A stretch of DNA of 64,000 nt from Nesterenkonia sp. PF2B19 (GTDB taxonomy: Bacteria > Actinomycetota > Actinomycetes > Actinomycetales > Micrococcaceae). Below are positions 33,589 through 38,524 of the stretch, piece by piece; the first letter of the stretch is position 1; each line of letters opens with the position of its first letter. Under the pieces are notes generated by a model. That model saw only the letters and a list, made by a program, of their open reading frames with translations. It had not been told where the DNA came from and did not search any database. Position numbers and translations under genes: made by a program. The stretch is from contig NZ_MDSS02000001.1 in assembly GCF_001758425.2 (NCBI RefSeq), positions 62,001-126,000 on the forward strand. The letters are read 5' to 3'.

Positions 33589-34509
33589 TCACCGTTGGCA
33601 GCCAGGGCACCAATAGAGGGTGCGACCCTGGAGCTCTCGGGCGGCGATGGCCTCTCCGCACCGCAGGCAGGGGGTCCCGTGATGCCGGTAGACCCAGTGG
33701 CGACGTTCTGCCTCCGGATGCGAGGAGACCCGATAGTCATGCGTGGCCTCGGACGGCGGCGGATCCGGGGTCCGCACCGTGCGGATCACGCCCTCCCGGA
33801 CTCCGTCCCGCAGCTGGTCGGTGAGTCGGCGCCACAGCGCGGCGGCCTGCTCCGCCGGGAGCTGTCGTGCGGGCATGTCCGGGTCGAGGCGCTCCAGGAA
33901 AAGCGACTCCGCCCGATAGATGTTCCCGACCCCGGCGATCACACTCTGGTCCATCAGCGCGGCGGCCAGCGGGGTCCGACGTCGAGCCAGGCGTCCGGCG
34001 AAGCTCTCGATCATGTCATCGAGGGTCGCCCCCTCCGGCTGACGCAGCGGATCGGGACCGAGCCGGGCGATCACCTCGCGGTGCTCCTCGGCGGTGAGGA
34101 CCGCACACCTCGACGGTCCGCGGAGATCTGCCCATCCGTGAGGAGAGCGGATCCGGGCTCGGACCGCGCCCTCCGGAGCGGTGGGGACGATCCAGCCGTC
34201 GTCGTCGCGCCGAATGTCCCAGGCTTGCGCGGCGGCACGGGGTGCGCCCAGTGTGGCGGCGCCGTCGAAGGACTCGTCCCCCCGGAAGCTGAACGCCCCG
34301 TACAGGCCCAGGTGGACTTGCCAGACGTGGTGGCCGACGCGCACGAAGAGGTGCTTGCCCCAGGCCTCTGCCTGCTCCGGGGCACGTCCGTCCAGAAGGG
34401 CCGCGCCCGCGGCGAACCGGCCCTGCGGCGAGGTGACCTTCCACATCCTGCCCACGAACAGGTCGCCGATCTGCCGGGCGAGCCGGTGCAGCGTGTGTCC
34501 TTCAGGCAT
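33589..34509 (-). CDS. Fpg/Nei family DNA glycosylase (Nei2-like)
   Basis: Base-excision repair enzyme that removes oxidised bases and nicks the DNA. 306 residues. The N-terminal MPEGHTLHRLA provides the catalytic Pro2 and Glu3, and HTLHR marks the Nei2-like actinobacterial branch. H2TH motifs are seen in LAAALMDQSVIAGVGNIYRAESLFLERL. The C-terminal zinc finger has four cysteines (CLRCGEAI...YWCPGC). It lies 22 bp after rpiB on the same strand and is probably co-transcribed with it. Confidence 0.92.
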   Translation of the reverse strand: MPEGHTLHRLARQIGDLFVGRMWKVTSPQGRFAAGAALLDGRAPEQAEAWGKHLFVRVGHHVWQVHLGLYGAFSFRGDESFDGAATLGAPRAAAQAWDIRRDDDGWIVPTAPEGAVRARIRSPHGWADLRGPSRCAVLTAEEHREVIARLGPDPLRQPEGATLDDMIESFAGRLARRRTPLAAALMDQSVIAGVGNIYRAESLFLERLDPDMPARQLPAEQAAALWRRLTDQLRDGVREGVIRTVRTPDPPPSEATHDYRVSSHPEAERRHWVYRHHGTPCLRCGEAIAARELQGRTLYWCPGCQR

Positions 34510-34531: not shown

Positions 34532-35005
34532 TCAGTCGACGATCTCGCCGGACTCCTCGTAGCGGGTGATCTTGCCGATCCGGCGCGCGTGACGCTCCTC
34601 GTCGGTCCACTGGGCGGTCAGGAACGCCTCGACGATCTCGGTGGCTTCCGCGACGCTGTGCTGGCGGCCGCCGAGCCCCACGACGTTGGCATCGTTGTGC
34701 TCGCGGGCCAGCCGGGCCGTGTCCAGGTTCCAGGCCAGCGCGGCCCGGATGCCACGGACCTTGTTGGCGGCGATCTGCTCCCCATTGCCGGAGCCGCCCA
34801 AGACGATGCCCAGAGAGTCCATGCCCTGGCGACGGTCCTCGGCCACAGCCTCGGCGGCGCGCAGGCAGAACGCCGGGTAGTCGTCGAGCGCGTCATACTC
34901 CTGCGGACCGTGGTCGATCATCTCGTAGCCCTGGGCGCTGAGGTGCTTCACGAGGTGGGCGGAGAGCTCCATGCCGGCGTGGTCGGTGGCGATGTGGACG
35001 CGCAT
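34532..35005 (-). CDS. rpiB: Ribose-5-phosphate isomerase B
   Basis: Interconverts ribose-5-phosphate and ribulose-5-phosphate in the pentose phosphate pathway. 157 residues. MRVHIATDHAG is the substrate-binding start. GIVLGGSGNGEQIAANKV has Glu76 in the place used as catalytic base by the mycobacterial enzyme, where E. coli RpiB has a Cys. NDANVVGLGGRQHS is also conserved. It sits just upstream of the Nei-like gene. Confidence 0.95.
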   Translation of the reverse strand: MRVHIATDHAGMELSAHLVKHLSAQGYEMIDHGPQEYDALDDYPAFCLRAAEAVAEDRRQGMDSLGIVLGGSGNGEQIAANKVRGIRAALAWNLDTARLAREHNDANVVGLGGRQHSVAEATEIVEAFLTAQWTDEERHARRIGKITRYEESGEIVD

Positions 35006-35188
35006 GTCAGGCGGTGTTCCTCTCGAGGGACGTCAGGTGGCGGGCGACTCATCGACGCCACCTGGTGCTGTGGCGCCGATGACATCCTATGAGGAAATCG
35101 CGCTCGTCCTGGAACGCGTTGCGCCGCGAGGGGAGCCTGCCCGACGGACGGTATCGTGAGAGGCACAGGCACCACAGATGGGGAGAGC

Positions 35189-36403
35189 ATGCAGATCGAC
35201 CAGCACACCTTCCGGGTGGAGGTGGCCTGGAGTGACGACGGCGGAACGACCGGGCCCCGAGACTACCGACGCGAGCACACCGTCACAGCGGTGCTGAGCG
35301 AGCGGGAGTCCTCGCGCGGGCTGGAGTCCCCGCCTCCGCTGACGGGGTCCGCGGCCCGGGCCTTCCATGGCGACGCTGAACGGTGGAACCCGGAGCAGCT
35401 TCTGCTCGCCGCCCTGGCACAGTGCCATACCCTCTCCTATCTGCACGCGGCCGCCGCGGCGGGTGTGGTGGTGACCGCGATGACCGTGCACGGCACGGCC
35501 GAGCTTCGGGTCCACGGCGACGGTTCCGGGGAGATCACCGCGGCAGTCCTCCGCGCCGAGGTGACGCTGGCCGATGAGAGCCGGCGCGCACGGGCCGATC
35601 AGCTGCATGCCGAGGCCGCCGAGCGGTGCTTCATCGCCCGGAGCGTGAACTTCCCGGTCACCCATGAACCGGTGTCCCCGTTCCGGTCCACCGGCGCCTT
35701 CGACCGCGGCACCTCCCCCAGCAGATCCACTCCACCCGAGGCTTCCGCACCTCAGGGGTCCGCACGCGAGGGCTCGGAGGATCGGGCCCCTCGTCCCCAG
35801 TTCTCGCGCCGCCTCGGTGCTCCGATCGCCACAGTCCGTCCGGTGGGACGCCCCCCGTCGCAGGTGAGCGGCCTCCCGTCGACGGAACGGCCCACCACGG
35901 AGCCGCCCTCCGCCGAAGGAGAATCGTCCTCCGACCATGCGGCGACGGCGTCCTCCCGTCCCGCCAGTGCCGACATGGGATACCTGCCCGCACCCGGAGG
36001 ACTGCCGATGGGTGACCCTGCACCGTCCCCGGATCAGAAGTCCTTCTTCGAGGAGGTGGGCGGCCACGAGACCTTCCAGCGGATCGTCGACGTCTTCTAC
36101 GACCAGGTGGCCGAGGACCCCGATTTCCGCGCGATGTATCCCGAGGAGGACCTCGAGCCCGCCAAGCGCCGGCTGCTGATGTTCCTCGAGCAGTACTGGG
36201 GCGGGCCCCGGACCTACCAGGCCGAACGCGGCCATCCGCGACTGAGGATGCGCCACATGCCTTTCCGCGTCGATGCCCAGGCGCGAGACACCTGGCTGCG
36301 GTACATGCGACGAGCGGTGGAGGCCGCAGACCTGTCCCCGATGCATGAACAGATCCTCTGGGACTACCTGGAGCGGGCGGCCCACTCCATGGTCAACAGC
36401 TGA
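35189..36403 (+). CDS. OsmC family protein fused in frame to a truncated haemoglobin
   Basis: One open frame of 404 residues with two recognisable parts. Residues about 1-165 are OsmC-like (peroxide-detoxifying family; [24 protein letters not shown] with the reactive Cys, and [15 protein letters not shown]). Residues about 166-284 are a Pro/Ser/Arg-rich linker of low complexity. Residues about 285-404 are a group II truncated globin ([63 protein letters not shown] with the proximal His). In related genomes these are, to my knowledge, usually separate neighbours. An internal ATG at 36008 has an excellent ribosome binding site, so free globin may be the main product. ATG 35189 follows GGGGAGAGC; a GTG at 35156 is also open. 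Confidence 0.8.
35996..36010 (+). promoter_or_regulatory. Internal ribosome binding site and start for the globin part
   Basis: GGAGGA at 35996-36001, a 6-nt spacer, then ATG at 36008-36010 in the same frame as the upstream OsmC part. It would give a 131-residue globin beginning [11 protein letters not shown]. The match to the anti-Shine-Dalgarno sequence is stronger than that of most genes in the window. Confidence 0.7.
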
Positions 36404-36433
36404 ATCATGCCGCGGCGTGAACCGCGCCGCCGC

Positions 36434-36877
36434 TCAGATCCCGGTCCGGCGGCACAAGATATGACCACCGGCTGAGCTCAGGCGCAGCCAGCGACCCAGA
36501 CCGTGCACGGCGGTGCGCCCGCCGGAGGCCTCCGGGCTCAGGAAGTTCAGCGCGTGAGAACCGAACGCCGCACCGGCCGGAACCGCCTGCGCCGCTGCCG
36601 AGGCCGCCGTCCCCTCGGACGCAGCGGGGCCGTCAGCGGGATCCGCAGGTGCCGACTCGGCCTGCACATCGTCCGTGGAGGCGCCCGCGGTGGACTCAGC
36701 CGCAGTCTCAGCGAGGCTGCGGCCCCAGACCCGCTCACGGACCTGCTCCACGACCGCCGCGCCGGCCGTCTCCGGCACGGTCCGGGCGATCTCCGCGATG
36801 CCGTGCTCGGCTGCGGCACGCACGACGTCGTCCTCCAGCTCCCCCAGGGGCTGCCATCCCGTGCGCGGGGGCGTCAC
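36434..36877 (-). CDS. Hypothetical protein, coupled to the gene upstream
   Basis: 147 residues, GTG start. The N-terminal half is TGWQPLGELEDDVVRAAAEHGIAEIARTVPETAGAAVVEQVRERVWG. A variable Ala/Ser/Asp linker follows, then a C-terminal PAGAAFGSHALNFLSPE. I do not recognise a domain; it looks like an uncharacterised Micrococcaceae protein. The GTG overlaps the stop of the preceding gene as GTGA, a classic coupling arrangement. The adjacency could also be a single gene split by a frameshift, but the tight overlap favours two genes. Confidence 0.6.
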   Translation of the reverse strand: MTPPRTGWQPLGELEDDVVRAAAEHGIAEIARTVPETAGAAVVEQVRERVWGRSLAETAAESTAGASTDDVQAESAPADPADGPAASEGTAASAAAQAVPAGAAFGSHALNFLSPEASGGRTAVHGLGRWLRLSSAGGHILCRRTGI

Positions 36878-37260
36878 GGCGGCCCACGCACGCTCAGCCG
36901 GCTCGGCGGCAGCGGCAGCACGGTCTCCGCCGGGTTCATCCGGGCGAGACGCTCGGTGATCGCGCTCAGCTCCACGGTGACGTCGGCTCGGGACGACCGG
37001 GTCAGAGCCATGGTGCGCAGCCCCAGCACCGCAGGCAGTCGACCCACCAAGGAGCTGGGCGTCATCACCGGCACCCAGGCGGCCAGCACCGTGCCCACGG
37101 CCTGCAGCCGGACGCCCTGCTCCTGGATCCGGCGGGCACGCCGGATATAGGTGTGCAGGTCCTGCAGGGCCACGGCCTCCGCGAAGTGCAGCTCCCGCGG
37201 CTCCTCAGAGGCGCGCGCGGAGGAGGGGTCGGGCGAACGGGGTCCGGGGGTGCTCGTCAT
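36874..37260 (-). CDS. Hypothetical protein, first of a coupled pair
   Basis: 128 residues from ATG 37260, preceded by GGAAG at usable spacing; the ORF is open to 37323. The main segment is ELHFAEAVALQDLHTYIRRARRIQEQGVRLQAVGTVLAAWVPVMTPSSL, predicted mostly helical, then LPAVLGLRTMALTRSSRADVTVELSAITERLARM. No known domain is evident. It ends in a 4-bp overlap with the next gene and is divergent from the thioesterase gene. Confidence 0.6.
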   Translation of the reverse strand: MTSTPGPRSPDPSSARASEEPRELHFAEAVALQDLHTYIRRARRIQEQGVRLQAVGTVLAAWVPVMTPSSLVGRLPAVLGLRTMALTRSSRADVTVELSAITERLARMNPAETVLPLPPSRLSVRGPP

Positions 37261-37498
37261 GGCGGCCATTCTTCCATCTGCCGCTTCGGGGACCGGTCCC
37301 CGTGGAGGTCTGTGACGGGGCATGTCCGCACGGGGCGCTCACCGTCACCGACACACCGCAGCGGCTCACGGGGCCGCCCCGCAGAGCCTGCCGCTGACCA
37401 CGCGCTGCGCTCGGTAGAGTGGTGTTCAGTCCCGCCCCGTACCAGCCGGTACCATCCTGTGCCGCCCTCCCCACCAGCCCGCCCCCTCCGGAGGTCCC

Positions 37499-38524
37499 AT
37501 GTCTGAGCGTCCGTACCGCGTCCCCACCCCCGCAGAAGCCGTGGACCGTCTGGTGGGCATGCTGGACCTCGAGGATCTCGTCCCGGCCGACGGCGAGCCC
37601 GGCGCAGAGGATCTCTTCCTGGGACCGGTCTTCGACCAGGCCTTCTGGCGAGTCTTCGGGGGTCAGGTGCTCGCCCAGTCGGCGATCGCCGCGATGAGGA
37701 CCGTGGATCCGGAGCGAGTCATCCACTCCGTCCACGGATACTTCCTCCGCCCCGGTGATGCCACCAAACCGATCGAGATCGGCGTCGAGCGGCTCCGCGA
37801 CGGGGGCTCGTTCTCCGCCCGACGCAGCCACGCATATCAGGACGGGCGGCCGATCCTGTCGATGATCGCGTCCTTCCAGCGGCCGTCCCCGGGGCCGACG
37901 CATCAGCAGGACATGCCGCTGGACATCCCCGGACCGGAGGAGCTCGCCGCCCCGCATGAGCTCGTCGGGCACGTGAAGCACCCTGTCATGCAGGAGTGGG
38001 CCCACGGCAGGCCCTTCGAGATCCGTCATGTGGACCGCCCCATCTACTTGGAGGAGGACACGCTGCCCCGGGCCGCCAACGCGGTGTGGATGCGCACCCG
38101 CGGCCCGCTGCCGGACGATCCGAACGTCCACCGGGCGGCGATCCTCTATGCCTCCGACTACACGTTGTTGGAGCCGGTCCTGCGACGCCACGGGCTGTAC
38201 TGGGCCAAGCCGGGGATGAAGGTGGCCTCCTTGGACCACGCGATGTGGTGGCACCGGGAGGCGCGCGCTGACGAGTGGCTCCTCTACATCCAGCGCAGCC
38301 CGAGCGCCCAGAGCTCGCGCGGACTGGGTGCGGGCGCCATCTACACCCGTGACGGAGCCCTGGTGGCCACCGTGGCTCAGGAGGGCATGGTGCGTCGTCC
38401 CCACGGACTGAAGCCGCGCATCCAGGAGCGCGTCCAGCAGTCGATGGTGCGCAGTTCACGCACCCAACGTCGTCTTGAGCGGCAGTATGGCAGCACATGG
38501 GCCTCCCGCTATTTCACCCGATGA
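37499..38524 (+). CDS. tesB: Acyl-CoA thioesterase II
   Basis: Hydrolyses acyl-CoA thioesters; TesB-type double hotdog fold. 341 residues, slightly longer than E. coli TesB. Motifs: FWRVFGGQVLAQSAIAA near the start of hotdog one, VHSVHGYFLRPGD and SFSARRSHAYQDGRPILSMIASFQ. The second hotdog has LYASDYTLLEPVLRRHG, ASLDHAMWWHR and LGAGAIYTRDGALVATVAQEGMVR. The catalytic Asp of the second half is in the ASLDHAMW segment. ATG 37499 follows GGAGG at 37490-37494. Confidence 0.92.
   Translation: MSERPYRVPTPAEAVDRLVGMLDLEDLVPADGEPGAEDLFLGPVFDQAFWRVFGGQVLAQSAIAAMRTVDPERVIHSVHGYFLRPGDATKPIEIGVERLRDGGSFSARRSHAYQDGRPILSMIASFQRPSPGPTHQQDMPLDIPGPEELAAPHELVGHVKHPVMQEWAHGRPFEIRHVDRPIYLEEDTLPRAANAVWMRTRGPLPDDPNVHRAAILYASDYTLLEPVLRRHGLYWAKPGMKVASLDHAMWWHREARADEWLLYIQRSPSAQSSRGLGAGAIYTRDGALVATVAQEGMVRRPHGLKPRIQERVQQSMVRSSRTQRRLERQYGSTWASRYFTR

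Follow-up and report, generated by a model that had tools for sequence, protein, structure and literature searches.

A single uninterrupted gene of Nesterenkonia sp. PF2B19 encodes, from N to C terminus, an OsmC-type thiol peroxidase domain, a linker of ~120 residues, and a group II truncated haemoglobin. The gene lies in a stretch of 64,000 nucleotides that was analysed as a whole (hereafter, the window), and its architecture recurs in several genera of the same bacterial family. Our best reading, to which we assign a probability of roughly 0.5, is that the product is a single-chain, tethered two-domain hydroperoxide-defence protein. The preliminary description of this DNA had proposed one frame joining OsmC, linker, and group II truncated globin, and had called it an unusual redox fusion. 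The open frame, the Pfam matches, and the group II globins found as closest structures bear out the first claim; as to the second, the fusion is real, retains its OsmC catalytic residues, occurs in several genera, and is neither a one-off nor an indel product.

Architecture and surroundings of the fusion gene

The frame runs from ATG to TGA over 404 codons plus the stop, giving a protein of 404 residues (Table 1). Pfam placed OsmC at residues 61–159 (E 2.8e-16; 60.2 bits against a cut-off of 27.5) and Bac_globin at residues 285–403 (E 7.5e-35; 120.2 bits against a cut-off of 21). Both scores exceed the curated cut-offs, and these were the only matches at E up to 1; no reductase (FAD/NAD), sensor, or monooxygenase domain was found by Pfam at that threshold. 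The genome carries one Bac_globin gene and four OsmC-family genes according to Pfam.

Table 1 Features of the OsmC-globin fusion gene in the window.
Feature	Position	Strand	Basis
OsmC-linker-truncated globin fusion gene	35189..36403	+	Intact frame; architecture recurs in relatives
-10-like hexamer TATCGT	35152..35157	+	Spotted by eye, upstream of fusion gene
Shine-Dalgarno-like stretch GGGGAGAGC	35180..35188	+	Directly before ATG of fusion gene
OsmC-type domain	35201..35668 (Pfam match 35369-35665)	+	Pfam, structure matches
R28, conserved Arg, taken as active-site Arg	35270..35272	+	Residue conservation
E69, taken as Ohr Glu51 equivalent from its spacing to Cys	35393..35395	+	Conservation; PMC5962072
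C79, putative peroxidatic cysteine (by family)	35423..35425	+	Conservation
C147, putative resolving cysteine (by family)	35627..35629	+	Conservation
Linker, ~120 residues, mostly pLDDT <50	35669..36040	+	AlphaFold model
Conserved 27-residue linker motif	35792..35872	+	Alignment, pN/pS
Second linker element, 15 residues, with counterparts in other Nesterenkonia globins	35969..36013	+	Sequence comparison; holds internal GGAGGA-ATG
Internal GGAGGA...ATG	35996..36010	+	Absent from L031, L154
Group II truncated haemoglobin domain	36041..36397	+	Pfam, sequence and fold matches to solved proteins
Y304 (taken as B10)	36098..36100	+	Alignment to 1ngk
Y317 (taken as CD1)	36137..36139	+	Alignment to 1ngk
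Y343, equivalent of B. subtilis YjbI Tyr63 on our reading of the alignment	36215..36217	+	Alignment; PMC9536834
H356 (taken as F8, haem ligand)	36254..36256	+	Alignment to 1ngk
W369 (taken as G8)	36293..36295	+	Alignment to 1ngk

A consensus scan of positions 35000–36500 found no sigma-70 promoter or terminator. The Shine-Dalgarno (SD)-like GGGGAGAGC has GAGGAGAGC as its counterpart in two other Nesterenkonia loci (L031 and L032). Of 32 distinct fused genes, 27 have a TANNNT hexamer 6–7 nt upstream of an OsmC-part start codon; it is missing from those of the four Nesterenkonia and of Auritidibacter, five in all. Outside Nesterenkonia it is present in 27 of 28 (L058–L082 and others). At 5–10 nt, the hexamer precedes 19 of 50 OsmC genes that are unfused and near a globin gene, 9 of 32 other OsmC genes, and 3.5% of letter-shuffled upstream sequences. 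This spacing is compatible with leaderless transcripts and suggests that they may begin at the OsmC codon. The Nesterenkonia fusions have an SD-like leader in place of TANNNT.

On the opposite strand upstream lie an rpiB-type gene (34532–35005) and a formamidopyrimidine-DNA glycosylase-type gene (33589–34509). Downstream are a frameshifted gene and then an acyl-CoA thioesterase gene at 37499 (+). The frameshifted gene (36434–37323, minus strand) consists of two overlapping frames that are halves of one frame in all seven congeners compared; neither half has a Pfam match. Judged from this comparison, the split is a frameshift in the window, genuine or a sequencing error. The concern about indels raised in the preliminary description suits this downstream gene and not the fusion itself.

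Conserved catalytic and haem-pocket residues

Foldseek comparison of the OsmC part of the monomer model returned 2d7v, 1nye, 1qwi, and 2onf at E <0.001, with TM-to-target values of 0.5–0.65 and high rmsd. No NCBIfam subfamily could be given to this part, as all five matching models scored under their curated cut-offs, among them OsmC (TIGR03562, 28.1 bits against 85.8) and Ohr (TIGR03561, 20.6 against 88.85); since these scores are far under the cut-offs, we file the OsmC part at the superfamily level only. PMC5962072 presents Arg19 and Glu51 as the hallmark pair of the Ohr active site. R28, E69, C79, and C147 are retained in 125 of 126 OsmC rows (114 distinct), and the fusion protein has no cysteines other than C79 and C147.

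Among solved globins, the C-terminal part came closest to two of group II, HbO of M. tuberculosis and the Thermobifida fusca protein (E between about 1e-42 and 1e-41), with HbN at 4e-4, and fold comparison likewise ranked group II over HbN. Residues Y304, Y317, H356, and W369 are retained in 121 of 121 globin rows and Y343 in 117 of 121. The locus L054 (G016, genome 62% complete), in which a stop codon and a change of frame interrupt the globin gene, was excluded from residue counts and trees. Phe occupies the Y343 position in four globin rows of the unfused-near class. The conserved OsmC quartet and haem pocket would imply two working active sites.

A conserved motif within the linker

The preliminary description had envisaged a Pro/Ser/Arg-rich linker of about 120 residues. 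The length holds; the linker is more than a mere spacer, containing a conserved 27-residue motif. The form LPxF(S/G)xRLGAPIAxLxPxxxKxPSxVTG is common to 16 aligned OsmC-motif rows, with RLGAP invariant. The motif also precedes the globin in the readable globin-only Nesterenkonia proteins (L034–L053, L055–L057), which have no neighbouring OsmC, and a looser form, IPSRFGxPLAxLxP, is found ahead of other globins (L089, L097, L099, and L103). Of the 31 distinct linkers with the motif, 14 have a Met immediately before it, and this residue may be a former globin start codon. The second linker element of the window is related to ADLGxxPGPDGxP of globin-only congeners. The motif gave 0 matches in solved proteins, and its core had one other DNA match in the rest of the genome (two in total, versus four for a reversed-pattern control).

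The pN/pS ratios over nine pairs were 0.03–0.20 for the globin and 0.09–0.50 from the start codon to the motif (the OsmC part and the first part of the linker). The motif had values of 0–0.28 in the eight scorable pairs and no change at all in the ninth, and the post-motif linker 0.11–0.76. The motif value was the lower of the two in seven of the eight scorable pairs, the remaining one being L107/L072 (0.20 vs 0.18).

In AlphaFold models of two different fusions, most of the motif has pLDDT <50, and the linker as a whole is probably disordered. Because the motif is conserved yet apparently unstructured, we infer that it binds another molecule. Docking of the motif on either of its own domains was also considered; the low pLDDT of the models gives it no support and is no proof of its absence. 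The models contain no confident relative placement of the domains (pTM 0.50).

Distribution of the fusion and of separate gene pairs

The search of related genomes suggested in the preliminary description found the same architecture repeatedly. OsmC and Bac_globin share one frame at 29 of 74 loci (the window and 28 of the 73 loci L031–L103), in a hand-picked sample enriched for candidates, so that the fractions are no population estimates. By genus group, the fused loci among the 73 number three in g1 (Nesterenkonia), eight in g4 (including Micrococcus terreus, G032), eight in g35 (including M. lylae, G154), seven in g42 (including Yaniella halotolerans, G098, and Enteractinococcus coprophilus, G156), one in g37 (Auritidibacter ignavus, G066), and one in g2; the fused genera include Nesterenkonia, Micrococcus, Yaniella, Enteractinococcus, and Auritidibacter. 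The 73 loci represent 27 of the 29 other g1 genomes (without G008, which had no match, and G025, with a partial one), 8 of 8 g4, 8 of 11 g35, and 7 of 9 g42 genomes, and single picks from other genera in which long open frames were favoured. Loci outside Nesterenkonia were chosen among the matches listed in 295 genomes of the family. In a named collection, 13 fused loci were found in the best 80 matches to a fused OsmC-motif query, a set enriched by that choice and sharing several genomes with the 74-locus sample.

Relatives with two separate genes, which the preliminary description would have taken as evidence against a fusion if no fused product occurred, exist alongside these fused ones. 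OsmC and globin genes are separate but near in 52 rows (17 picked loci and 35 named, some genomes counted twice). In every one of the 52, the genes share a strand with OsmC upstream, and the domains are separated by 37 to 2074 nt. An 8-nt overlap of the two genes is seen in L087, and, by coordinates, the OsmC stop codon overlaps the globin start codon in L090 and L121. In L096, an MscS-like gene (Pfam) intervenes, leaving 842 nt between the domains, which counts against a joint function; a similar intervening gene was recognized by eye in L085, L098, L101, and L103. No OsmC was present in the fetched stretch of L092, L093, or L097 nor in the short contig L084, and no globin lies within 3 kb of OsmC in L133 and L139 (Arthrobacter). 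The pairing is not universal even inside the family. The globins adjoining OsmC in nine loci of the Glutamicibacter type (L116, L117, L120, L122, L124, L125, L130, L134, and L149) form a long-branched group.

Outside the family, adjacency was found in none of 26 genomes with a match to each part. In 12 of these, a single contig carries both parts, separated by about 68 kb or more; in the other 14 they are on different contigs, where adjacency over contig ends could escape, and some of the OsmC matches are weak and may be paralogues. From these sequence comparisons, the OsmC-globin pairing looks family-specific. Within Nesterenkonia (the window and L031–L057), 4 of 28 loci are fused and 24 have a globin (broken in L054) without OsmC nearby. 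No match to OsmC elsewhere was listed for those 24 genomes in a search that excludes close copies only and that, in the genome of the window itself, picked up only one of the three further OsmC genes detected by Pfam.

Origin of the fusion

The 31 distinct fused domains with the motif fall into a single group of the OsmC tree (SH-aLRT 97). The Zhihengliuella metagenome-assembled genome (MAG) at L143 is fused through an 18-residue gap and lacks the motif, and the genes of its relative Z. salsuginis (L121) overlap yet are separate. The globin tree grouped L143 with 19 unfused globins (support 98). On these trees, L143 looks like a second fusion event, with the qualifications that a single origin for all 32 fused OsmC domains was not rejected by the OsmC data (p-AU 0.438) and that the MAG frame might contain an error. 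The globin tree (120 columns) neither recovered nor rejected (p-AU 0.163) the motif-bearing fusions and Nesterenkonia as one group, and the four fused Nesterenkonia as one clade were not rejected (p 0.578).

Proposed function and alternative explanations

In the proposed two-domain defence protein, the N-terminal OsmC domain would use its dithiol in Cys-based reduction of small organic or lipid hydroperoxides, and the C-terminal group II globin would serve as a haem peroxidase for different oxidised substrates, for instance protein hydroperoxides or H2O2. The flexible tether would hold both domains in one place and at equal number. OsmC proteins are dimers, and an OsmC dimer would accordingly bring two globins into each particle. 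The linker motif would probably dock the protein on a partner in the cell. We infer the two activities, their cooperation, and the partner; the frame, its recurrence, its conservation, and the gene order are the observations at hand.

Experiments on B. subtilis YjbI, a group II globin, are reported in PMC9536834: the protein removes protein hydroperoxides, needs Tyr63, and did not affect lipid hydroperoxides. Ohr enzymes, in turn, are described in PMC5962072 as acting on fatty-acid hydroperoxides and peroxynitrite. Joint hydroperoxide defence is the most economical reading because the substrates of YjbI and Ohr would be complementary.

A possible but rather doubtful alternative is that a tightly coupled gene pair lost a stop codon and that the fusion is neutral, the domains working independently with little gained and selection acting on the globin and the motif at its N-terminal side. 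Since OsmC is missing from most Nesterenkonia loci, we rank this alternative first among the rivals. It also agrees with the genes that already overlap in some unfused relatives, with the pre-motif Met as a possible relic of an old globin start, and with G028 (L033:5030–5947), in which the globin is intact and the motif kept. The in-frame OsmC part of G028 is shortened and without R28, E69, C79, and C147; by its sequence, it is a decaying domain, and it counts against a joint function, as does the OsmC-part pN/pS of 0.5 between the window and Nesterenkonia sp. F. Neutrality fits less well with the 25 fused loci outside Nesterenkonia, all of which keep the frame and the catalytic quartet intact (they were chosen partly for long frames), with start-to-motif pN/pS values of 0.09–0.36 in eight of nine pairs, or with the apparent second event in L143, for which one origin was not rejected.

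It is unlikely that the two domains form an electron relay, in which the OsmC dithiol would pass electrons to the globin haem and be recharged by lipoamide or a different thiol, making the protein a self-sufficient, thiol-driven haem peroxidase. Such a relay would suit the presence of C79 and C147 as sole cysteines. PMC9536834 leaves the electron donor of YjbI in vivo unsettled and considers the dithiol neighbour YjbH for this role; it also states that loss of yjbH had no effect on sensitivity to AAPH, and calls the donor role inconclusive. A further point against a relay is the persistence of the globin without neighbouring OsmC in most Nesterenkonia loci. A wider proposal, for which we see quite a small chance, would make the OsmC dithiol the natural donor of the group II globin, with the motif docking the pair on a specific partner and the unfused pairs of Arthrobacter and relatives as the two-chain form.

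The preliminary description had further suggested that an internal GGAGGA-ATG yields free globin, so that one gene would give two products, the full-length fusion and the globin alone. This is improbable. Neither of the two nearest fused relatives has the start at 36008: L031 (G003) carries CTG with an altered SD, and Nesterenkonia sp. F (L154) lacks both SD and ATG. GGAGGA can be explained as Gly-Gly codons, because the peptide element that contains it is matched by similar ones in other Nesterenkonia globins. In favour of an internal start, GGAGG stands 7 nt before ATG274 in the window, and raw matches place AGGAGG before the pre-motif Met in L061 and L063 and 5–7-base SD matches before post-motif starts in L032, L061, L068, L069, L071, L072, and L073. 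These SD-start pairs of other fusions, however, lie elsewhere in the linker at positions that are not shared; a weaker pre-motif SD is seen in L064 and L065, none was found before that Met in g35 and g42 loci, and the post-motif pairs of g35 overlap Glu-Val codons. The fused gene is the only Bac_globin gene in all 13 fusion genomes tested (the window's and 12 others), and these genomes have therefore no second gene for free globin.

That two genes were joined by faulty sequencing or assembly, for which only the frameshifted downstream gene of the window might speak, is ruled out by the same single frame in one-contig genomes (the congener G003, G170, G198, and G030), which gives no indication of the lost stop codon after OsmC that the preliminary description had feared, and chance joining is excluded because the fusion recurs across loci and genera.

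Comparison with known systems and implications

The globin part shares with group II truncated haemoglobins (trHbO/GlbO; 2bmm, 1ngk; YjbI) the Bac_globin domain, the fold, the presumed B10 Tyr, CD1 Tyr, F8 His, and G8 Trp, and the Tyr63 equivalent. The fusion differs in adding an N-terminal OsmC domain and a motif-bearing linker, whereas the matched solved globin chains have 123–193 residues. With the Cys-based hydroperoxide reductases of the OsmC/Ohr superfamily (2d7v, 1nye; XfOhr), it has in common the Pfam OsmC domain, two conserved Cys, a Glu ten residues before the first Cys, and an Arg; unlike them, it stays under all five matching NCBIfam cut-offs and is fused to a globin. A chimera of truncated haemoglobin and antibiotic monooxygenase occurs in Streptomyces. 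Other chimeric globins, as listed in PMC1457004, include flavohaemoglobins and globin-coupled sensors. All carry a globin and a second domain on one chain, but here the partner is OsmC-type. The yjbIH operon of B. subtilis, in the account given in PMC9536834, likewise ties a group II globin genetically to a dithiol protein, which is DsbA-like, and has a link to oxidative stress; its thiol protein is a different one, and its products are separate chains in another phylum.

In the open-licence literature, we found no description of OsmC together with truncated haemoglobin or GlbO, and a genomics paper on M. luteus (PMC7890812) has 0 mentions of osmC, hemoglobin, or globin. The one paper that came up for an OsmC-globin fusion is an unrelated haloarchaeal genome study, and nothing relevant was listed for globin fusions in general. 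Each domain is known on its own; in the open-licence literature searched, no account was found of the architecture, of how far it has spread, or of the motif. Database entries for the fusion proteins very likely exist.

The recurrent fusion links group II globins to thiol-based hydroperoxide reduction in bacteria including Micrococcus. The family offers a natural series of separate genes, overlapping genes, fused genes, a fused gene with a dead OsmC, and globin alone. PMC9536834 treats as open questions both what group II truncated haemoglobins do and what supplies them with electrons. If true, the reading of OsmC as donor would answer who reduces these globins, and the joined gene in several related groups provides a testable clue to the debated job of the haem protein.
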